Origin: a virus | Virus record (IMG/VR): IMGVR_UViG_3300025070_000007 | Span: 1-35,466 of that record | DNA: 35,466 nucleotides | Reading direction: 5' to 3' (one strand) | In this document: in pieces, positions 18,266-34,044 of the stretch | Position numbering within the stretch: position 1 is the stretch's first letter | Layout of the letters: every line of letters starts with the position of its first letter | Program-made: the position numbers and the translations under genes | Notes under the pieces: generated by a model | What the model saw: the letters and a program-made list of their open reading frames with translations, nothing else | Database searches by the model: none | What the model was told of the DNA's origin: nothing

Positions 18266-18353
18266 CAGTAATTTACAGCAAGACACAGCAGGGCACCTTC
18301 GTAAGTCATTGATTTTGTTGGCCTCGCAGTAAGCTGCAGTAAGCTGCAGCAAG
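18266..18353 (+). repeat. CAG(T/C)A motifs in 10-bp phase (candidate excisionase sites)
   Basis: CAG triplets, mostly in CAGTAA or CAGCAA, start at 18266, 18276, 18286, then 18327, 18337 and 18347. The spacing is exactly 10 bases within each cluster, with 41 bases (about four turns) between clusters, so all six face the same side of the helix. Cooperative excisionases such as lambda Xis and P2 Cox bind closely spaced direct repeats of this kind. Binding here is an inference. Confidence 0.55.
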
Positions 18354-18358
18354 ACTGT

Positions 18359-18386
18359 ATGGGTTCAAGCCCCATCGTCCACCCCA
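18359..18386 (+). other. tRNA-His 3' end in attP (core of site-specific integration)
   Basis: The 28 bases fold as the last part of a tRNA: T-stem ATGGG (18359-18363), T-loop TTCAAGC (18364-18370), T-stem CCCAT (18371-18375), acceptor strand CGTCCAC (18376-18382), discriminator C (18383), CCA (18384-18386). C73 is the identity feature of bacterial tRNA-His, and the acceptor would pair with GTGGACG plus G-1. No anticodon arm is present, so this is not a functional tRNA gene. It would restore the 3' end of the host tRNA-His after integration. Confidence 0.85.
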
Positions 18387-23620: not shown

Positions 23621-23652
23621 CGAGTGTCTCCTTGTTCGTTGACAAAGAGAAC

Positions 23653-23707: not shown

Positions 23708-24181
23708 TTAAAACGACGCAACGACTACATTTTTCATCGCTTCTTCGTTTTTGCCTTTCCAATAAAGCAATTCGACGTTACGCATATCGTAGAACAGGTC
23801 GTTTTCCCTTGCGTAAGCCTTAACTGCAGGCAGATCCCAAGGATGAACGCCAACGTACATGAGCTCATCTTGGATGCGCACGCACACAAACGCGCTGTCT
23901 TTGTGCAGCACCAGCGTCTCTGCCGAGTAGCCGCTGTAGAAGCGCGCCATTTTTGCCGCAGCAACGCGAAATGCCCGATGCGTGCTGCAGTCGCCCGAGG
24001 GGCAAGGGCAGGGCTGCAACATTTCTTTTAACATATTTATAGGCTGCGTTGACCGGCTGTCGAAAGGGACAATAAAAAACTTCAGCCCGTGTCCAGAGCA
24101 AAAGTGATTTGTTGCCTCGACTAGCGCCCTGTTTGCGTAGGTGTCCCAGGTTTTGTGTCGCTCTTTACGAGTCTTTTCCAT
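23708..24181 (-). CDS. unknown protein co-transcribed with the repressor (candidate lysogenic conversion gene)
   Basis: A 157-aa protein with no motif I can name. It has a basic start (EKTRKERHKTWDTYANRAL), a short Cys cluster (QPCPCPSGDCSTHRAF), and a mixed alpha/beta C-terminus (LVLHKDSAFVCVRIQDELMYVGVHPWD ... MRNVELLYWKGK). The start overlaps the repressor gene by 17 bases, so translation is probably coupled. It ends before the PL promoter, making a repressor-plus-one operon that would be on in the prophage. Superinfection exclusion, anti-phage defence or host fitness are the options to consider. Confidence 0.75.
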   Translation of the reverse strand: MEKTRKERHKTWDTYANRALVEATNHFCSGHGLKFFIVPFDSRSTQPINMLKEMLQPCPCPSGDCSTHRAFRVAAAKMARFYSGYSAETLVLHKDSAFVCVRIQDELMYVGVHPWDLPAVKAYARENDLFYDMRNVELLYWKGKNEEAMKNVVVASF

Positions 24182-24503
24182 GTGCTGATTCCCTAGCGCT
24201 TTCTATGTCCAATAGATGGTTGATGAGCGCGTCTACTTGTTGTTGTGAGGGGATAGACAGTGCGGCAAAGGTGTCTTGCATATTCAGCCCCGTTGCGTTG
24301 TCGTCACGGCCAAACAGCAGCCAGGCGGGCTTCACGTTGAAGAGCTCGGCGAGCTTAACGACGTTCGATCGGTTTGGTGTGGCCTTTCGAGTCTCCCATT
24401 TATGGATGACGTTGTGATTGATTCCGGACAATTCAGCCAATTGACGCAGGCTAAGTTCGCGTGCATTCCGGAGATCGCGTATACGGTCGGCGATGTCCTT
24501 CAT
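24165..24503 (-). CDS. cI: XRE-family repressor (cI-like, short form)
   Basis: A 112-aa protein. Residues 4-64 are a classic HTH_3 domain (IADRIRDLRNARELSLRQLAELSGINHNVIHKWETRKATPNRSNVVKLAELFNV). The remaining ~48 residues are helical (PSQQQVDALINHLLDIESAR), probably for dimerisation. No LexA-type peptidase domain is present, so RecA-triggered self-cleavage is unlikely and induction must use another route. AAGGAG precedes the ATG. It diverges from the Cro-like gene across a 123-base operator region. Confidence 0.88.
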   Translation of the reverse strand: MKDIADRIRDLRNARELSLRQLAELSGINHNVIHKWETRKATPNRSNVVKLAELFNVKPAWLLFGRDDNATGLNMQDTFAALSIPSQQQVDALINHLLDIESARESAHGKDS

Positions 24504-24626
24504 GAGTTTGTCTCCTTAGTAATGTCGTCAGCCGAATGTATCGCAAAGGGTGACAATGAGCAACACTTTCGGTGACATCGTGTTTGTGTGTTGTGACTGT
24601 CACCTTAAAGGTGTACATTCGCAGCG
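24504..24626. promoter_or_regulatory. repressor/Cro divergent control region with three operator-like sites
   Basis: Three 19-bp sites fit TGTCACC-N5-GGTGACA: 24537-24555 (right half perfect), 24559-24577 (right half perfect, left weak) and 24598-24616 (left half perfect, GGTG on the right). The third contains the perfect palindrome CACCTTAAAGGTG. Rightward promoter: TTGTGA (24591-24596), 17 bases, TACATT (24614-24619), with the start codon at 24627, so the mRNA is probably leaderless. Leftward repressor promoter: TTGCTC (24563-24558), 17 bases, TACATT (24540-24535). The three-site layout recalls lambda OR. Confidence 0.7.
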
Positions 24627-24824
24627 ATGAGTAATACAAACATCTGGGAAGACATCCAAATCGCCGAGCTCGCGCGCCAACTAAACATTTCGCGCGGGTC
24701 AGTTTACAAGTGGAAGTGGGCAGACAAGATTCCTGCAGAGCGCGTCGTGCAAGTTGAGGCCATCACCGGCATCAAGCGCGAAGAGCTTAGGCCAGACCTT
24801 TTTAGCAACGCGGCCAATGGCTGA
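24627..24824 (+). CDS. cro: Cro-like HTH regulator
   Basis: A 65-aa protein of YdaS/Cro type: IAELARQLNISRGSVYKWKWADKIPAERVVQVEAITGIKREELRPDLF. It is the first gene of the rightward operon and diverges from the XRE repressor. No SD precedes the ATG, and the -10 box ends seven bases before it, so leaderless translation is likely. Its stop overlaps the start of the prim-pol/helicase gene by 8 bases. By position it would repress the repressor promoter and favour lytic growth. Confidence 0.88.
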   Translation: MSNTNIWEDIQIAELARQLNISRGSVYKWKWADKIPAERVVQVEAITGIKREELRPDLFSNAANG

Positions 24825-26787: not shown

Positions 26788-26940
26788 CGGTGCATCAGTA
26801 GCGTGTTTTTTACTGATGCAGAGCGATGCAGCGGCGAGCATCAAAATGTACCTGCATCGGTACAAATTTTACTTGTACCGGCAGGGTACTACTGATGCAG
26901 GTTTTGGGTGCTGCAAAAGTAGTGATGCGTGACTGATGCA
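26788..26940. repeat. iteron cluster, candidate replication origin
   Basis: About 150 non-coding bases after the replication protein. GATGC(A) or its complement occurs eight times: 26791, 26815, 26825, 26838, 26853, 26894, 26924 and 26935. Two form a perfect inverted repeat (TGCATCAGTA 26791-26800, TACTGATGCA 26811-26820). A second inverted repeat is CGGTACAA / TTGTACCG with a 7-base AT-rich loop, at about 26858-26880, and a GTACC-N6-GGTAC pair encloses one iteron. Such density of short repeats next to a helicase/primase gene is typical of phage and plasmid origins. Confidence 0.65.
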
Positions 26941-27319
26941 AAAGGCTAAAAAACCAAAGGCAAAGGCAAAGGCCAAGAAGCAGTCGGCGGGCAGCAAGGG
27001 CGAGGAGGCGCTTGCAGCGCAGCTGCAGGCGGCGGGCGTGAGCTTCGAGCGGGAGCAGCTGCTGATACCTGGCCGAAGGTTTCGGTTCGACTTTGTGATC
27101 ACCGGCAGCGACCTGGTCATTGAGGTGGAGGGCGGAACGTGGAGCGGGGGCCGGCATACCAGCGGCGTTGGCTTTCGATCGGACTGCTTTAAGTACAACA
27201 AGGCGCTCGAGCTCGGCTATCGGGTGCTGCGGTATACGACGGATATGGTGACGAAGGGTGATGCGATAGCGCAAGTCATGGACATACTAGGCGCTGAGAG
27301 CGCCGTAGAGGGGCTGTGA
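26936..27319 (+). CDS. VSR-like PD-(D/E)XK endonuclease (possible Holliday junction resolvase)
   Basis: A 127-aa nuclease. Lys/Arg-rich start (QKAKKPKAKAKAKKQ), then SKGEEALAAQL (E23/E24), RRFRFDFVI with D52, LVIEVEGGTWS with E63 and E65, GRHTSGVGFRSDCFKYNKALELGYRVLRYTTDMV. This is the VSR-like family that replaces resolvases in many phage replication operons. The start codon lies inside the last GATGCA iteron, with no good SD. It probably resolves recombination or replication intermediates before packaging. Confidence 0.85.
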   Translation: MQKAKKPKAKAKAKKQSAGSKGEEALAAQLQAAGVSFEREQLLIPGRRFRFDFVITGSDLVIEVEGGTWSGGRHTSGVGFRSDCFKYNKALELGYRVLRYTTDMVTKGDAIAQVMDILGAESAVEGL

Positions 27320-27325
27320 GGCGAT

Positions 27326-27595
27326 ATGAAGTGTAAGCAGTGCGGTAGTAGCGGCAACAGGGTGATTAGCTCTGACAAGCTGCGAGAGGGCGTTAGACGG
27401 CGTCGCGAGTGTTTGCGGTGCGGTGACAGGTGGAACACAATGGAGACTGTGCTGGTCGAGCGACCGGCAGAGCCGAAGGCGAAGCCGGAGCGCAAACCCG
27501 CGGAGCCTGCGTATCGGCGTGAAGAGCTCGAAGATCTGGCCGATGGTTGGGATAGCGAGCTCGACGACATACTCAACGAATTAGGAGCGAACTAG
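27326..27595 (+). CDS. NrdR-like zinc-ribbon protein
   Basis: An 89-aa protein. Residues 1-40 form a zinc ribbon with C3-x2-C6 and C29-x2-C32 (KCKQCGSSGN ... RRRRECLRCGDRWNTMET), like the N-terminal ribbon of NrdR but without its ATP-cone. The rest is Pro/Glu-rich and ends in an acidic helix (LEDLADGWDSELDDILNELG). It is placed between the nuclease and small terminase. A late-gene regulator or a DNA-binding packaging accessory is possible. Confidence 0.8.
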   Translation: MKCKQCGSSGNRVISSDKLREGVRRRRECLRCGDRWNTMETVLVERPAEPKAKPERKPAEPAYRREELEDLADGWDSELDDILNELGAN

Positions 27596-27596
27596 C

Positions 27597-28037
27597 ATGC
27601 CTGGCAGACCGATAATCAGAGCGCAGATCAAGAGCCTGGAAGAGCGTGGCGAGGAAGCCGTGTTCAACATGATTGCTGGCGGCATGACTGTGGTTAACAC
27701 GATGAAGGAGTGCCAGGTTGGCCGGCGTGCTTTCTACCGTTGGCTTGAAGAGGGCGAGGGAAGGCACGATCGCTACATGCAGGCGCGTAAGCTGTGGGCT
27801 GATGCGCTGGCCGAAGAGTGTCTTGAGATAGCCGATGGCACGATGGACGCGCACGATGCGACCGTTCGCAAGCTACGCATCGACACGCGCAAGTGGTTGG
27901 CCGGCAATGTGAACCCAGACCAATGGCGTGAGAAGCGCGATCCGTTGGTCAATATCACGTTGGGTGATCAGCATTTGGCTGCGCTTCGTGAGCTCACAAA
28001 CGACAGCGTGATCGAGCACGAGAGCGACGAAACCTAG
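27597..28037 (+). CDS. terS: terminase small subunit
   Basis: A 146-aa protein resembling Sf6/P22-type small terminases: a helix-turn-helix DNA-binding start (VFNMIAGGMTVVNTMKECQVGRRAFYRWLEE), then YMQARKLWADALAEECLEIADG and VRKLRIDTRKWLAGNVNPDQWREK, the conserved oligomerisation segment. It recognises the packaging site and delivers DNA to the large subunit. A GGAG precedes the ATG. Repeats just downstream are candidate pac sequences. The large subunit is 1.9 kb further on, separated by the accessory operons. Confidence 0.88.
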   Translation: MPGRPIIRAQIKSLEERGEEAVFNMIAGGMTVVNTMKECQVGRRAFYRWLEEGEGRHDRYMQARKLWADALAEECLEIADGTMDAHDATVRKLRIDTRKWLAGNVNPDQWREKRDPLVNITLGDQHLAALRELTNDSVIEHESDET

Positions 28038-28082
28038 CTCGCAGACACTGGCTCGCGCAGCCGGCTTTGCGCGCAGGAAATG

Positions 28083-28263
28083 GCCGTGGAACAATTTGCT
28101 GCGACAGCTGGGTTAAGGGGCGTTTTGCCGTGGAACACCGCAAATAATTGCACGCAAAACTGTTAGGTCAGCAAAATCAATGACTTACGTCTTTGCGCAA
28201 TTGCGCGTAATCATCATTATGTTAAATTGGGCCGCGAAAGGGCCGTGGAACGTGCCGTGGAAC
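28083..28263 (+). repeat. four GCCGTGGAAC direct repeats
   Basis: Copies start at 28083, 28127, 28242 and 28254, two on each side of the att-like element at 28165-28189. The first and last are extended to GCCGTGGAACAAT. The paired arrangement resembles the paired CGCGGACA units of attP. They could equally be terminase or replication-protein binding sites. Confidence 0.75.
28165..28189 (-). repeat. inverted second copy of the attP element
   Basis: This 25-base element agrees with 18300-18324 on the opposite strand at 23 of 25 positions, including an uninterrupted 18-base match (CAAAATCAATGACTTACG). An ACTG also matches two bases beyond it. Such a long match between two non-coding sites 10 kb apart is not expected by chance. 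Confidence 0.8.
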
Positions 28264-28339
28264 AATGGCCGACCCCCCCCTTGAACCAGCAGGGGGGTGG
28301 GGGGTGGAGGACTAGACTTCCGCGCACCAAAAAAAATTT

Positions 28340-28516
28340 TTATTTTCTTCGAGTGCCCTTCTTCGCAGTCTTCGCCGCAGCGCGAAAGGCTTTGGCAGTA
28401 GGCGCACCTTTGGTGCCAGGCTTGCGCATCTTTTCGGGCTTTTTACCCGCGGCTTTCTGCGCTTTGATCCGCCGCCGCTTGGCAGCGATGTTTGCGTAGA
28501 GTCCTTTTCCTGACAT
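28340..28516 (-). CDS. small basic protein (58 aa), third gene of leftward accessory operon
   Basis: A 58-aa, very basic protein: MSGKGLYANIAAKRRRIKAQ, then KKPEKMRKPGTKGAPTAKAFRAAAKTAKK. I recognise the KGLYANI...RKPG-x-KGAPTA pattern as a conserved small phage protein of unknown role. The ATG overlaps the stop of the 84-aa gene (TGATG), and AGGAGA is ten bases upstream. It ends at a T/A-rich tract. Being under 60 codons it is easily missed. Confidence 0.75.
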   Translation of the reverse strand: MSGKGLYANIAAKRRRIKAQKAAGKKPEKMRKPGTKGAPTAKAFRAAAKTAKKGTRRK

Positions 28517-28770
28517 CACTTTCTCCTAGATTTTGTGCCAGCGCACTTCCAGCGCTTTCGCGAAAGGCGCAGTGGGCTGTTGGGGTTCTTGGCGGCTTTT
28601 GGGTGCTTCTTCATCTGGCCGGCAGACCTGGCGCAGTAGGCGTCGCCTTTCTTGCTGGACGGCTGCACGCGCCGCGAGCCGTCTTTGGCCTTGCCCGCCT
28701 GGCCGTAGGACACTTTCTTCCCACTGGCCGTCACTTTGACGCGGGCTTTGCCCTTGCGTGGTGTGGCCAC
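28516..28770 (-). CDS. small basic Cys-containing protein (84 aa), second gene of leftward accessory operon
   Basis: An 84-aa protein starting at GTG 28770, rich in Lys/Arg and Ser/Gly. The C-terminal half GDAYCARSAGQMKKHPKAAKNPNSPLRLSRKRWKC is a conserved signature of a small protein common in marine phages as I recall it; function unknown. Two Cys residues (C46, C76) could bind metal together with His. Two bases separate it from the stop of the 43-aa gene. Confidence 0.75.
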   Translation of the reverse strand: MATPRKGKARVKVTASGKKVSYGQAGKAKDGSRRVQPSSKKGDAYCARSAGQMKKHPKAAKNPNSPLRLSRKRWKCAGTKSRRK

Positions 28771-28772
28771 GG

Positions 28773-28904
28773 CTAGCGTGGTGGGTAGGGTGGCTTAACG
28801 ACGGGCATGTTCGTGCCGGCAGCCATGCGTGCGTTGCGCGCTTCTTTGGTTGCTGATCGCTTGCCTTTCATGGCTTTCATGGTTTTTGAGTGTGATCCGT
28901 ACAT
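28773..28904 (-). CDS. small basic protein (43 aa), first gene of leftward accessory operon
   Basis: A 43-aa protein: MYGSHSKTMKAMKGKRSATK, EARNARMAAGTNMPVVKPPYPPR. GGAG lies five bases before the ATG at 28904, and the TAG stop is two bases before the next start, so the three tiny basic genes form a compact operon. Nothing in it suggests an enzyme. Nucleic-acid binding is possible on composition alone. Confidence 0.6.
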   Translation of the reverse strand: MYGSHSKTMKAMKGKRSATKEARNARMAAGTNMPVVKPPYPPR

Positions 28905-28963
28905 GGGAGCTCCATATGTGGTGATTGGTGAGCTCTAATTTTCTCATATTTATCGCATATTAT

Positions 28964-29004
28964 TGTCACCAAAAAGGTGACAGATAGAACAATATCGGTA
29001 TAAT
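28964..29004. promoter_or_regulatory. divergent promoters with the best-preserved repressor operator
   Basis: TGTCACCAAAAAGGTGACA (28964-28982) has two perfect 7-bp half-sites around A5. Rightward promoter: -35 GTGACA (28977-28982), 16 bases, -10 TATAAT (28999-29004), leading to the gene at 29031. By symmetry the other half-site gives GTGACA on the minus strand (28969-28964), with TATGAG 15 bases on, leading to the tiny basic-protein operon at 28904; this second promoter is weaker and less certain. Repressor binding should shut both. Confidence 0.8.
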
Positions 29005-29030
29005 TAGGGCCATAACAACGGAGAACGGAC

Positions 29031-29318
29031 ATGGAAAACGAAACTTTTGAAAAAGACGGCAAGATCTACTGGGCAACGCCGAGTATCGAAGTGAGAGTAA
29101 ACGGCATAAGAAAACTGAGTCCCTCCTACACCTTTGAAGTTTGTTGCGAAGAAATGGAGCTTGCAGACGTTATTGAGCAAGAAGTTTATCCGCAATACCA
29201 CGAGGGCAAAGACGGCGAAGAAGATTACGTTAGCTACACCGCGCCTTTAGTCGTTGTAGTAAAAGAAAGGCTTTCTGTCATCAAAGACACTAGATGGTTG
29301 CCACGGGGAACCGCGTAA
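29031..29318 (+). CDS. unknown protein, first gene of rightward accessory operon
   Basis: A 95-aa acidic protein: ENETFEKDGKIYWATPSIEVRVNGIRKLS, FEVCCEEMELADVIEQEVYPQYHEGKDG, and a beta-type VSYTAPLVVVVKERLSVIKDTRW. No known domain. GGAG precedes the ATG, and the promoter -10 lies 26 bases upstream. Direct control by the prophage repressor, small size and isolation between terminase genes suggest an early lytic accessory gene. Confidence 0.7.
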   Translation: MENETFEKDGKIYWATPSIEVRVNGIRKLSPSYTFEVCCEEMELADVIEQEVYPQYHEGKDGEEDYVSYTAPLVVVVKERLSVIKDTRWLPRGTA

Positions 29319-29333
29319 GCGGCGGGAGGCAGT

Positions 29334-29549
29334 ATGACGACAACACAACTACCAGCACCCTGGCACGTCAAACACGCATCAGAGCTCAACAACCGGCAGA
29401 TGGCGATGCTTCTCGAGGCCATCGCCGCCGACGCAGAGCGAGCGCCGGACATCAGTCCCAATGGCAAGAACCACAGGTACATATCAGCTGTTGGCTTAGC
29501 CGATATATTGCTCGCCGCATCCGACAGGCTCACCGAATCAGCCCGCTAA
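29334..29549 (+). CDS. unknown protein, second gene of rightward accessory operon
   Basis: A 71-aa protein: TTTQLPAPWHVKHASELNNRQMAMLLEAIAADAERAPDIS, then YISAVGLADILLAASDRLTESAR. Mostly helical, no motif. GGGAGG lies before the ATG. Its stop codon TAA sits in the loop of a GC-rich hairpin (29541-29556) identical to the stem of the terminator downstream. Another frame overlapping it is a shadow. Confidence 0.7.
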   Translation: MTTTQLPAPWHVKHASELNNRQMAMLLEAIAADAERAPDISPNGKNHRYISAVGLADILLAASDRLTESAR

Positions 29550-29556
29550 CGCGGGC
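29541..29556 (+). repeat. GC hairpin, duplicate of the terminator stem without the T-run
   Basis: GCCCGCTAACGCGGGC, identical to 29887-29902. It overlaps the stop of the 71-aa gene and is followed by GCATAG rather than T-residues, so it should not terminate efficiently. Together with the second copy it brackets the 100-aa gene. Confidence 0.8.
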
Positions 29557-29577
29557 GCATAGTGATAGGATAAAAGT

Positions 29578-29880
29578 ATGGAAATCAAAATAAACATGAC
29601 GACCCGTGAAATCGGCTATCTGTGCCACACGGCAAGCCCGAATTTTTACCATGAGCAGTCTGATCGGTTCGAGATCATGGAAGATGAAAGCGAGCCGGTA
29701 GAAGGTGGCCAGCTATTCTGGTGTGGTACTGAATTCCTGAACGCCAAGATTGTTGCGCAGTTTTATCGTGGCTCGCTCAACGCTGACACGTCGATCATGT
29801 GGGATTTAGATCTGGAAGAATGGGTTGTTTGGGTCACGGTTGAGTCAGACGCGCCGCCAACGAGCGAAGACATACATTGA
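29578..29880 (+). CDS. unknown protein bracketed by duplicated hairpins
   Basis: A 100-aa acidic protein: EIKINMTTREIGYLCHTASPNFYHEQ, FEIMEDESEPVEGGQLFWCGTEFLNAKIV, then WDLDLEEWVVWVTVESDAPPTSEDIH with several Trp. No known domain. AGGATAAA precedes the ATG. The gene lies between two identical hairpin sequences (29541 and 29887), consistent with a cassette that was inserted or duplicated with its terminator. Confidence 0.7.
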   Translation: MEIKINMTTREIGYLCHTASPNFYHEQSDRFEIMEDESEPVEGGQLFWCGTEFLNAKIVAQFYRGSLNADTSIMWDLDLEEWVVWVTVESDAPPTSEDIH

Positions 29881-29886
29881 ATACCA

Positions 29887-29910
29887 GCCCGCTAACGCGG
29901 GCTTTTTTTT
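29887..29910 (+). terminator. rho-independent terminator
   Basis: Six-bp GC stem GCCCGC / GCGGGC with TAAC loop, followed by eight T. It ends the rightward accessory operon immediately before the large terminase gene, which therefore needs read-through, antitermination or its own promoter. Confidence 0.92.
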
Positions 29911-29932
29911 GTGCGGGAAAACCCTCTGACCC

Positions 29933-29958
29933 TTTTACCGCATACAAACACGGTAAAA
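29933..29958. promoter_or_regulatory. inverted repeat upstream of terL
   Basis: TTTTACCG and CGGTAAAA form a perfect 8-bp inverted repeat with a 10-base loop. Its right arm overlaps TAAAAT (29954-29959), a possible -10 box, five bases before the terL ATG. GGTAAAAT also occurs before the 50-aa gene at 31368. No good -35 is visible, so an activator-dependent late promoter is a possibility. Confidence 0.4.
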
Positions 29959-29964
29959 TATGGC

Positions 29965-31365
29965 ATGGCAGAAAACCCATATATAGCGTTTGTTAAGCGC
30001 TTTCGCAGTGACCCCGTCGCTTTTGTTGAGCAAGTGCTCAAGCAATCGCCCGACGCCTGGCAAAAAGAATTCCTCAATGCCATAGCATCTGGCGAGCGCA
30101 AAATCAGCGTGCGCTCTGGCCACGGCACCGGCAAATCCACGGCGAGCTCGTGGGCGATGCTGCACTTTTTGCTGACTCGCTATCCCGTCAAAGTCGTTGT
30201 AACAGCGCCGACCAGCGCGCAGTTATTCGACGCGCTGTTTGCCGAGCTCAAGCGCTGGATCAATGAGTGCCCTGTGGCGATCAAAGAGCTCTTGGAAGTG
30301 AAGAGCGACCGCGTAAGCCTAAAGGCCGCGCCGAGCGAGGCTTTCATCAGCTGTAGAACGTCCAGGGCAGAAACGCCAGAAGCGCTGCAGGGCGTTCACT
30401 CAGACAACGTGATGTTGGTGTGCGACGAAGCCTCCGGTATCCCCGAGGCGGTATTTGAGGCCGCAGCTGGCTCGATGTCAGGCGAGCACGCAACGACTGT
30501 TCTGCTCGGCAACCCGACCAGGAGCTCTGGCTTCTTCTTCGATACCCACCACCGCATGGCGGGTGATTGGTGGACGCGCAAGGTCAGCTGCATCGACTCG
30601 CCCAGGGTGAGCGAAGATTATGTGAGTGAAATGGCTGCGCGCTTTGGCGAAGAGAGCAATGCCTTTCGCGTGCGCGTGCTTGGCGAGTTTCCGCAGCGCG
30701 ACGACGACACGGCAATTCCGCTCGAGCTCGTTGAAAGCGCCCAAAGGCGCGAGGTTGTTATCACGGAAGACGAGCCGATCGTGTGGGGCTTGGACGTGAG
30801 CCGCTTTGGCTCCGACCGCAGTGCCCTTTGTAAGCGCCGCGGGCGCGAGCTCATGGGCATCCAGACCTGGCAGGGCTTGGATCTTATGCAGCTATGCGGC
30901 GCCGTCGTTGCTGAGTATGAAAGCCAGCAGCCGCGAACGCAGCCGGTGCAGATCAACGTGGACTCGATTGGCCTTGGCGGTGGTGTGTGCGACCGCCTGC
31001 GTGAGCTCGGCCTGCCGGCGGTAGGTATCAACACCAGCGAGAGCCCGAGCTCCAAGGCGACGTACATCAACCTGCGCGCTGAGCTCTGGTTTAAGGTGAA
31101 AGCCTGGCTCGAGGCCCGTGACGTGTCGCTGCCCCAAGACGACGATCTGCTCGCGGAGCTCGTTAGCGCCAAGTACAAGTTCACGAGCTCCGGCAAGATG
31201 CAGCTGGAAAGCAAAGACCAGATGCGCAAGCGCGGGCTGCGCTCGCCTGACCTGGCTGACTCTTTGTGCCTGACATTTGCCAGCGACGCAATGACGCTCA
31301 GCGGCGTGATGAGCGCGGCTAGCAGCTGGCAGAAACCGCTCAGGCGAGGGCTGTCAATTACCTAG
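29965..31365 (+). CDS. terL: terminase large subunit
   Basis: A 466-aa packaging motor. ATPase: Walker A SGHGTGKST at residues 51-59, Walker B VMLVCDEA with E155, and the coupling motif region LLGNPTR at about 180-186. Nuclease: D277 (WGLDVSR), D333 (NVDSIGLGGG), and D429/D432 (SPDLADSL). The family and length fit P22/Sf6-like headful terminases. I start it at the ATG at 29965 (AENPYIAFVKRF); the frame is open back to 29911, but that stretch runs through the terminator tail. No SD is visible before the ATG. Confidence 0.93.
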   Translation: MAENPYIAFVKRFRSDPVAFVEQVLKQSPDAWQKEFLNAIASGERKISVRSGHGTGKSTASSWAMLHFLLTRYPVKVVVTAPTSAQLFDALFAELKRWINECPVAIKELLEVKSDRVSLKAAPSEAFISCRTSRAETPEALQGVHSDNVMLVCDEASGIPEAVFEAAAGSMSGEHATTVLLGNPTRSSGFFFDTHHRMAGDWWTRKVSCIDSPRVSEDYVSEMAARFGEESNAFRVRVLGEFPQRDDDTAIPLELVESAQRREVVITEDEPIVWGLDVSRFGSDRSALCKRRGRELMGIQTWQGLDLMQLCGAVVAEYESQQPRTQPVQINVDSIGLGGGVCDRLRELGLPAVGINTSESPSSKATYINLRAELWFKVKAWLEARDVSLPQDDDLLAELVSAKYKFTSSGKMQLESKDQMRKRGLRSPDLADSLCLTFASDAMTLSGVMSAASSWQKPLRRGLSIT

Positions 31366-31536: not shown

Positions 31537-34044
31537 TTGGCAAAGCTGGACGGCCTAACGTCGCTAGCTGGCGGTCTGATTGATGACGCAACCCTAGCGA
31601 GCTTGCGCGCAGCTGATGCTGCAGACGCGGCTGCGAACCAAGGCATCCTTGGCTACCACGGTTCTCCATATTCTTTTGACAAATTCAGCATGGACGCCAT
31701 TGGTTCTGGCGAGGGTAACCAAGCCTATGGTCGCGGGCTGTATTTTGCCGGCGATGAAAGCGTCGCTACAGAATATCGCAACGCACTTCGACACAAAAAC
31801 GTCGACAAAGAAAGATCGTTAAGAGACGCGGGGATCGAAGACAGTTTAAGCGACGAGTCGCTACGGACTTTTTCTTCTGTCATATACGACGCAGCAAATC
31901 TTTCGCCCGACTTATCTCCGACGCAAATGGCCGACATAATTCAAGGTGCCAGCATTGAGTTTAGGTCTGTCCCAAAGTCAAAAATTGCGGACGCTGTATC
32001 TCGTTATCAAAACGACATGAAAGGCAGCATGTATCAGGTTCGCATTAACGCAACTGACGACGAGTTGCTTGATCTTTTCGCGCCGCTTGATGAGCAACCA
32101 CCAGGCGTGCAAGCCAAGCTAGAAGCAACTGATTGGTTCGAGACTGTATCGGAAAACCTTAATCTGAACACTCGAGAAAACCCTTATGGCATGGAGTTGC
32201 TTCGCTATCTCGAAGACGACGGCCCTGATTTTGCGGCTGCAACTTTGAACAGCGCCGGTATTAAAGGGGTTAAATATCCAGATGGCAAAAGTCGTAAACG
32301 TAAAGACGGTGACGCAAAAAAAACCAGCAATTACGTTATTTTTGACGACCAATACATAACGGTTGCTAGGAAATACGGAATACCTTTAGCCGCTATGACC
32401 GCAGCAGCAGCGCCACAAGACGCTGAAGCCGGAATCGTCACAGCCTCATTGTCGCCGGTCTTGCGTGCCTCGATGGACAAAGTGTTGCGTGGCGAAGAAG
32501 TCAGCAAGCGCGAGCTCAATTCCGTTAACAAGTACCTGGGTCAAATAGCCGCTGATCGCACGGCATTTGGTAGGCGCGAACGTATGCGCATGACGCCTGG
32601 CGCGTCACCAGACGTAGACGTCATGTCGCGCGATATCATCACGCCTGAATCTATGCAGGGTGAAATGCTGGTGCCGATACAGGGTGACGCCAGTATTGCC
32701 GGTGGGATTTTGGACAATGTCGAAGGCGTGCCTTTAGACCAGGAAATATATCTGCAGGGTGGCCCTAACTACCCGCTGATGAATTCGTATGGCAACAACT
32801 TGTTGGGTTGGGCGTCCATGCGTGACGCAGCCCAAACAAAGCAAAACCAGATTACCAGGGCAGGCTTGTTAGGCGACGACGTGCGCGGCGTGTATGCGCG
32901 CATGGGTGACCTTGCGATGGACTTCAACACTATGGTCGCCGAGGCGATGGTGCGGCAATTGCCCGCTCTGCAGCTGCCGAAGAAAGAGCTCGCAAAATTT
33001 AACAGAGTCATCCGCAAGTCAGTACCTGGTTTCGCCGGCGTTGAGACGCCAGAGGGGTTGGCGCAACTGAAAGGCCAGATGGCCGTGAGTGCAAGTAACG
33101 GTGACGCCATGTCGTCAAACGATCTGCGCAAGCTGGTCGTCGGCGAAATGAAAAAGAAAGAGTACGGCAACAAAGGCTTTCCCAACTACGAAGACACAGT
33201 GCGCGCCTTGACGGAGCCAGAGCTACGCGGGCTCGAAAGAGGCGACAGTGGCTTCAGCACAATCAGAGGCATGCCTGGCGCTGATCTGCTGGATAACGCT
33301 TACCACGACACCTACTCGCACGGCATCCCTGGCATCTATGCCGGCGGGCTCGAGGAGAGTGTTCCGCTGCAAGTCATGTTTCCAGACCTATTTAGAGCCA
33401 CTGGCGACAAGGTAATAACGAAAGAGAGCTCAAAGCGCTTTGGCGAGCCTCTTAACGCGCAAGAGCGTGTTGGCGCTGTGTTAATGGGCGGCGACGCTCA
33501 GAAAGCCGATCAGCAGTGGCTAGACGGCGTCATGAAATATCTTGAAGACAAAAAGAAGATGGGCCGTGCTGCAGCAATCGCAGCTGCTACGTCTTCTGGC
33601 AATGCGATGGCGATACCGCCCGAAGACATAGACATACAAAACGAGATTGATGCCCGCCGTGCCGGCGGCAGAAAGTATCGCCGCGAAAACCCGCCAAGCG
33701 GACTGCTTGCAGCGGAAGCGCAAAGCCAAGTCTTACCGCGCGCTGCAGAAGCAGGCCAGGGCTTCGTATCTGGTTTGTTGAGCGGCATAGATACGTTTGT
33801 GCAAGGAATGGCCGCACCAGATCCACGGGCCGCGATCGCGTCTCCGCAGGGCTACGGCCAGCAAATGGATAGTTTTATTCAAAACCAACAACTACCGCCG
33901 ACGCAAAACCCAAATTCCATGATGAGCACGCCTGCGATGCGCGGCCTGCTAGACCAGCAGTACATGGAAGACCCAGCTGAGCGCGCTGCTTTTCGCGCGC
34001 CGTTTGAGGCATTTGGCGGCCTATTGGCACCTTACGGAATATAA
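31537..34044 (+). CDS. large polyvalent protein with N-terminal ADP-ribosyltransferase-like domain
   Basis: An 835-aa protein starting at TTG 31537. Residues ~36-275 look like a PARP-type ART domain: YHGSPYSFDKFS (H41), then GSGEGNQAYGRGLYFAG (Y69), and a closing NYVIFDDQYITVARKYGI. This matches the H-Y-E class that transfers ADP-ribose from NAD+; I cannot place the third catalytic residue securely. A small hydrophobic link (PLAAMTAAAAPQDAEAG) follows, then a long helical region with GGPNYPLMNSYGNN, VRGVYARMGDLAMDFNTM and HDTYSHGIPGIYAGG, typical of phage polyvalent proteins. Between terL and portal it is probably packaged and injected to modify host targets early. Confidence 0.75.
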   Translation: MAKLDGLTSLAGGLIDDATLASLRAADAADAAANQGILGYHGSPYSFDKFSMDAIGSGEGNQAYGRGLYFAGDESVATEYRNALRHKNVDKERSLRDAGIEDSLSDESLRTFSSVIYDAANLSPDLSPTQMADIIQGASIEFRSVPKSKIADAVSRYQNDMKGSMYQVRINATDDELLDLFAPLDEQPPGVQAKLEATDWFETVSENLNLNTRENPYGMELLRYLEDDGPDFAAATLNSAGIKGVKYPDGKSRKRKDGDAKKTSNYVIFDDQYITVARKYGIPLAAMTAAAAPQDAEAGIVTASLSPVLRASMDKVLRGEEVSKRELNSVNKYLGQIAADRTAFGRRERMRMTPGASPDVDVMSRDIITPESMQGEMLVPIQGDASIAGGILDNVEGVPLDQEIYLQGGPNYPLMNSYGNNLLGWASMRDAAQTKQNQITRAGLLGDDVRGVYARMGDLAMDFNTMVAEAMVRQLPALQLPKKELAKFNRVIRKSVPGFAGVETPEGLAQLKGQMAVSASNGDAMSSNDLRKLVVGEMKKKEYGNKGFPNYEDTVRALTEPELRGLERGDSGFSTIRGMPGADLLDNAYHDTYSHGIPGIYAGGLEESVPLQVMFPDLFRATGDKVITKESSKRFGEPLNAQERVGAVLMGGDAQKADQQWLDGVMKYLEDKKKMGRAAAIAAATSSGNAMAIPPEDIDIQNEIDARRAGGRKYRRENPPSGLLAAEAQSQVLPRAAEAGQGFVSGLLSGIDTFVQGMAAPDPRAAIASPQGYGQQMDSFIQNQQLPPTQNPNSMMSTPAMRGLLDQQYMEDPAERAAFRAPFEAFGGLLAPYGI

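Follow-up and report, generated by a model that had tools for sequence, protein, structure and literature searches.

The DNA analysed here, referred to below as the window, is an entire IMG/VR record of 35,466 bp from an aquatic temperate phage, in which an insert of two unlike halves separates the two DNA-packaging genes. The small terminase gene, terS, is at 27597–28037 (plus strand; PF20901, Sf6-type small terminase, E 4e-18), and the large terminase gene, terL, is at 29965–31365 (plus strand; PHROG terminase large subunit, E 7e-45). The terL start is probably the ATG at 29965 rather than the GTG at 29911, and counted from this probable start the terS-terL gap is 1.9 kb. An initial sequence-only reading of the stretch had proposed that usually adjacent terminase genes are interrupted here. 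Since the two genes are about 270–400 bp apart in distant relatives without the insert, the interruption is genuine. The phage encodes a tyrosine integrase in the window. A prophage copy was sought in the genomes of 84,980 species, yielding only one distant terL. Related loci compared with the window are given L numbers.

Next to terS is a spacer (28038–28339) containing GCCGTGGAAC repeats, a dif-like site and a C/G-tract hairpin, with blocks that are conserved among relatives. Three genes on the minus strand follow: B59 (28340–28516; ATG start, 58 aa), B84 (28516–28770; 84 aa, with a C-terminal domain of the form YCARS...RKRWKC) and B43 (28773–28904; 43 aa), the first two overlapping by one base. 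On the other side of a divergent control region (28905–29030), three plus-strand genes, A95 (29031–29318), A71 (29334–29549) and A100 (29578–29880), are closed by an intrinsic terminator at 29886–29903 that is followed by T8. The sequence-only reading, which had six small genes of 43–100 residues diverging between terS and terL, the rightward set ending in a terminator, was thus correct in its anatomy. It was also correct in describing the leftward proteins as basic and the rightward ones as acidic or neutral: net charges are +20, +25 and +9 for B59, B84 and B43, and -8, -1 and -15 for A95, A71 and the very acidic A100. All six ORFs have relatives, and in comparisons with these dN is below dS in 6/6 cases, so that they are real genes rather than chance ORFs. 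B43 is the weakest case, with a ratio of 0.4–0.6 against distant relatives.

Several features were observed around the terminase genes. Before terL, at 29913–29965, lies a conserved inverted repeat, GCGGGAAAA/TTTTACCGC, and a -10-like TAAAAT is found about 5 bases before the terL ATG (TATAAT in L032 and L035); a separate promoter and a leaderless transcript are possible for terL. After terL, an 835-aa protein (31537–34044) shows a weak match, below the cut-off, to an ADP-ribosyltransferase domain of polyvalent proteins (E 1.3e-4). Upstream of terS, the stretch 26936–27595 encodes a small phrog_503 protein with weak Vsr/DUF559 nuclease-like matches and a second protein with an NrdR-like zinc ribbon, both of which stay with terS in relatives.

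The control region and the genes to its right

The control region is 87–100% identical in close relatives, and it is conserved though the genes downstream change. Within it, at 28964–28982, is a predicted repressor operator, the perfect 19-bp palindrome TGTCACC-AAAAA-GGTGACA. No other site in the record scores 14/14, and the best score in 40 shuffled copies was 13; the earlier claim that the best operator in the genome sits at the point of divergence is borne out. The right arm of the operator is the -35 box of a rightward sigma70-type promoter at 28977–29004 (plus strand; GTGACA-16-TATAAT, 11/12 matches), the only one of this type found near the control region. Because the scan yields 2.0 such promoters by chance, the case for this promoter rests on its conservation. 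Leftward, the scan recognised no promoter, and a conserved TATGAG-like block at 28943–28948 on that side is only a candidate for a promoter element.

The operator has counterparts at what looks like the immunity switch. A CI-like HTH_3 repressor gene (24165–24503, minus strand; PF01381, E 1.6e-13) diverges from a YdaS/Cro-like regulator gene (24627–24824, plus strand; PF15943, E 2.4e-14; P22_Cro, E 3e-7), and between the two, at 24537–24617, are operators (weaker related sites at 24537 and 24598), giving a lambda-type CI/Cro arrangement. Further weaker operator-related sites are at 23625/23674. L009, L010, L012 and L050 keep the same set of sites, each carrying the operator at its slot as well as at its immunity region. 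L016, L019 and L020, which are more divergent, have TGTACCCTAAAAGGTGACA as slot operator, and the repressor region of L016 carries TGTACCCTAAAGG; in L033 the slot site is TGTCTACGAATAGTAGACA, with the palindrome retained. This joint drift of slot and immunity operators, seen in few genomes, is consistent with the predicted control by the repressor. Given that matching operators flank the CI-like/Cro-like switch, the prediction that the rightward genes are early, repressor-controlled accessory genes is well supported.

Behind the promoter, the genes are replaced. Relatives whose terL and left genes are 88–98% identical to those of the window retain the promoter and operator, followed by different genes. 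Compared with L010, for example, DNA identity is 98% for terS, 95% for B59, 95% for B84, 98% for B43, 96% for the control region and 96% for terL; A95 and A100 are without a match and A71 is matched over 9% of its length. The pattern repeats in L012, L009 and others, and L003, which is identical here, is the only relative that shares all three slot genes. In some 22 relatives, slots of up to 2.5 kb contain about 39 ORF clusters, a count from a crude ORF call in which some slots are cut by contig ends and some ORFs are surely spurious. Different genes thus occupy one position between conserved flanks, and, as far as the sequence can tell, a slot promoter under phage control is retained when the genes change. 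The exchange may have left traces. A stem-loop, CAGCCCGCTAACGCGGGC, lies directly 5' of A100 (29539–29556, plus strand) and recurs as the terminator; in several relatives it precedes a different last gene, which suggests that genes are exchanged at short shared boundary sequences.

For A95, A71 and A100, no function was found with Pfam, PHROGs or PADLOC, in keeping with the earlier statement that none of the six proteins has an assignable domain; the statement did not hold for B59, a member of phrog_16028, itself a family without a function. Relatives of A95 are found only in L003 and L158–L160, and its dN/dS is 0.14–0.22. The last three loci belong to another phage type, where the A95 relative comes after replication-type ORFs; in L159 a different palindrome lies upstream of it, and in L158 and L160 it is followed by ORFs that resemble terS and terL by eye. 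Relatives of A71 occur in 33 loci. The A71 structure model, of moderate confidence, consists of two long helices and nothing else, and in L025 (67–579) and L245 (2956–3399) the A71 relative runs on into a domain that weakly matches the C-terminal domain of RNA polymerase alpha (E 0.004 in Pfam; about 0.02 against PDB chains). A100 has relatives, 43–46% identical, in the slots of L020 and L032. Most slot occupants of the relatives likewise fall in no family and have no known function, and PADLOC matches among them are weak; two representatives match phrog_757, a DNA methyltransferase family. Such an enzyme may serve to shield phage DNA or to regulate, instead of countering defence. The slot is a plausible source of anti-defence genes. 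That counter-defence is the main job of its genes is a real possibility, one that we would place somewhat short of probable.

The B43-B84-B59 module

The leftward genes behave differently from the rightward ones. Wherever a close relative covers the interval, B43-B84-B59 is in the same position and on the same strand, so that the variable gene content which the sequence-only reading had suggested looking for is present to the right of the control region and missing to the left. dN/dS is 0.13–0.17 for B59 and 0.02–0.05 for B84, and B43 is syntenic and conserved in close relatives. B59 matches phrog_16028, a family of unknown function, with a PHROG E of 1e-16; its relatives are found in 85 phage records, and 57 distinct ones occur in the related loci compared, mostly on B84-bearing contigs. 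IMG/VR contains at least 599 B84 relatives, near which are families for portal, major capsid, terminase, head-tail adaptor and endolysin. Taken together, the B84 and B59 families are conserved neighbours of portal, capsid and terminase genes, in phages that number in the hundreds and are mostly aquatic. In the Roseobacter phages CRP-212 and CRP-7, B84 relatives adjoin terS-terL-portal or terL-portal; in HTVC023P and DSL-LC04 they are near capsid genes, and in HTVC168P a B59 relative lies between the scaffold and capsid genes. The two families are also joined to each other. A single ORF in L101 contains both domains, and phrog_11180 is matched by relatives of both, the B59 type at 13–54 and the B84 type at about 58–141.

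Some database records of B59 relatives are peculiar. Proteins of 49 aa in GenBank (PV261923.1, 24447–24596, which is L269; MK016662.1; PV261922.1) carry the label ribonucleotide reductase alpha subunit, apparently an annotation error that has been passed on. The Limnohabitans phage DC33 (PQ492659.1, L268), which has a B59 relative, is assigned by its record to Inoviridae, which is odd given its 39-kb genome.

The C-terminal domain of B84 is homologous to phrog_10346. The direct match of the C-terminus of the window's B84 is modest (E 4.9e-4), and HTVC023P gp43, 50% identical to B84 (E 3e-11), bridges it to that family (E 3e-25). The cyanophage S-CREM2 protein ORF137, of 490 aa (108049–109521), matches the same family with E 6e-95, carries the B84-type domain at its end and is encoded between terS and terL. 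Mass spectrometry of S-CREM2 virions identified ORF137 by 4 unique peptides, along with its neighbour ORF136 (PMC10665884). The evidence is at the level of the family: the protein detected, by those 4 peptides, is a distant and longer homologue, the short proteins themselves being undetected. The presence of ORF137 in virions argues for a virion or packaging role of the left half and against early host takeover. From neighbours, fusions and this one published proteome, we infer an association with the virion or with packaging as the most likely role of the small basic proteins of the B84 and B59 families. Other identities for B84 fared poorly. DUF6321 was rejected, with one B84 relative reaching 14.2 bits (E 0.07) against a cut-off of 28.5 and no match for the window's B84. 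The B84 structure model is moderate (pLDDT 75) and found no PDB match in a structure search, only unnamed viral ones. A search of solved-structure sequences with the B84 profile returned one weak match, to a designed protein, which was also rejected.

A dif-like site in the terS-side spacer

The most surprising part of the locus, absent from the sequence-only reading, is a conserved dif-like site in a phage that encodes its own integrase. This XerC/XerD-type site, TGCGCGTAA-TCATCA-TTATGTTAAAT, is at 28202–28227 on the plus strand. Its arms agree with the canonical TGCGCATAA-TGTATA-TTATGTTAAAT of short viral contigs recovered in the same scan, and among relatives the arms are conserved and the 6-bp centre is variable, as expected of XerCD arms. 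The exact pattern was found in 37 stretches in 2.9 million contigs, eleven of which are from this phage group. With up to 3 mismatches allowed, it was found in none of 100 shuffles, and eight pooled loci, 125 kb in all, gave matches in three such spacers and nowhere else. In L004, L005, L010 and L016 the site is inverted and its flanks are not. Distant insert-free relatives, with terL 56–59% identical, retain the site, near a C-tract. Because the shuffles were empty, because the arms and not the centre are kept, and because inversion occurs within unchanged flanks, we judge it unlikely that the sequence is a chance match or merely part of a packaging site. A tyrosine integrase is found in 10/20 related records, several of the remainder being fragments. 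In literature searches we met no tailed phage that combines an integrase of its own with the use of XerCD, the described users being filamentous and non-tailed phages. Secondary attachment, multimer resolution and something else are all candidate roles. That the spacer holds a working XerCD site, in either orientation, beside the phage's own integrase is a tentative proposal that we regard as rather less than probable. If true, the dimer-resolution machinery of the host would work on phage DNA, integrating it at a second place or resolving multimers, at a point next to the packaging genes and the swap insert.

The spacer has other features. Four GCCGTGGAAC repeats, at 28083, 28127, 28242 and 28254, and a C-tract/G-tract hairpin at 28271–28303, of which the C-tract is also found in distant insert-free relatives, are candidate pac/cos packaging signals. 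A 31-bp sequence is common to 28159–28189 in the spacer and 18300–18330 beside the integrase gene, the copies being 87% identical and on opposite strands; its core, AAATCAATGACTTAC, is kept in relatives, and a tRNA-3'-end-like sequence lies at about 18350–18385, near the second copy.

Interpretation and comparison with known systems

The account that we favour, and consider reasonably probable as a whole, is that a composite insert sits between an ancestral terS-side spacer and terL. Its leftward part would be the conserved B43-B84-B59 module, with B84 and B59 families that likely act in the virion or in packaging. Its rightward part would be an early accessory slot, with a promoter whose -35 box lies inside the repressor operator and is kept in close relatives, and with genes behind the promoter that change from relative to relative, seemingly by exchange through short conserved sequences at their boundaries. 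The CI-like repressor would keep the slot silent in a lysogen, and upon infection or induction the slot genes would be made early. What their products would most likely do is act on the host in a strain-specific way, for instance in counter-defence or by redirecting host functions. The anatomy, the conservation, the replacement of slot genes and the keeping and drift of the operator come directly from the sequence comparison; repressor binding, timing and biochemical function are predictions.

The sequence-only reading had taken both cassettes for early host-takeover or anti-defence genes under one repressor. For the rightward cassette this profile fits the kept promoter and operator, the swapped genes, the methyltransferase among the occupants and the alpha-CTD-like extension of an A71 relative. 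The leftward cassette shares the divergent control region and its best operator, and has the TATGAG-like block on its side, so that repressor control of the leftward genes is possible; if they share the operator, early expression is expected, which fits a virion role poorly. Yet B43-B84-B59 is invariant among relatives, the B84 and B59 families occupy head and packaging modules of unrelated phages, the promoter scan recognised nothing leftward, and a homologue with the B84 domain is found in virions, which is, for a homologue, the kind of finding that the sequence-only reading had itself named as counting against takeover. The leftward genes are probably not takeover genes, and we consider the reading of both cassettes as takeover genes unlikely.

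Two other explanations concern only the rightward genes, and both seem to us quite improbable. One is that they are lysogenic-conversion genes (morons) expressed from the prophage, as might be supposed for variable cargo with its own promoter and terminator in a temperate phage with an integrase; the placement of the -35 box within the repressor operator predicts instead that they are silent in the lysogen. The other is that the slot holds largely neutral cargo, without a common function, at a place where insertion is tolerated. Most slot families are indeed without a function, and the stem-loops repeated at gene boundaries could make a recombination hot spot, but A95, A71 and A100 are under purifying selection (dN/dS about 0.1–0.2) and the promoter and operator are strictly kept.

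With a fixed promoter predicted to be under the repressor and with swapped cargo, the slot would let many small, presumably early genes of unknown function be collected from aquatic phages by reading the DNA between B43 and terL, and these could go straight into screens for counter-defence. Hundreds of aquatic phages carry members of the B84 and B59 families, for which no function is on record; assigning the families to the virion or to packaging would put a label on a common piece of phage dark matter. A dif site in an integrase-bearing tailed phage raises the testable question of whether host recombinases act on phage genomes.

Each part of the locus has a known counterpart from which it departs. 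Like phage accessory-gene slots and morons, the slot has variable small genes at one place, with their own promoter and terminator, between conserved flanks; here, however, the promoter is under the phage repressor and predicted to be off in the lysogen, the location is between terS and terL, and most occupants are without a function. The switch is like the lambda-type CI/Cro regulon in having divergent CI-like and YdaS/Cro-like genes, operators between them and more operators at early promoters, but an extra operator, the best one, lies some 4 kb off in the packaging region and would drive accessory genes. B59 is simply a member of phrog_16028. B84 shares the YC-RS...RRW-C domain of phrog_10346 and S-CREM2 ORF137, the latter also encoded between terS and terL; in contrast to the 490-aa ORF137, B84 is the domain alone (84 aa), and order and strand relative to terL differ. 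Finally, the dif-like site is closest to the dif sites of XerCD-using filamentous and non-tailed phages, its arms being those of the canonical sequence in short viral contigs, but here it is found, in either orientation, in the terS-terL spacer of tailed phages that have a tyrosine integrase of their own.
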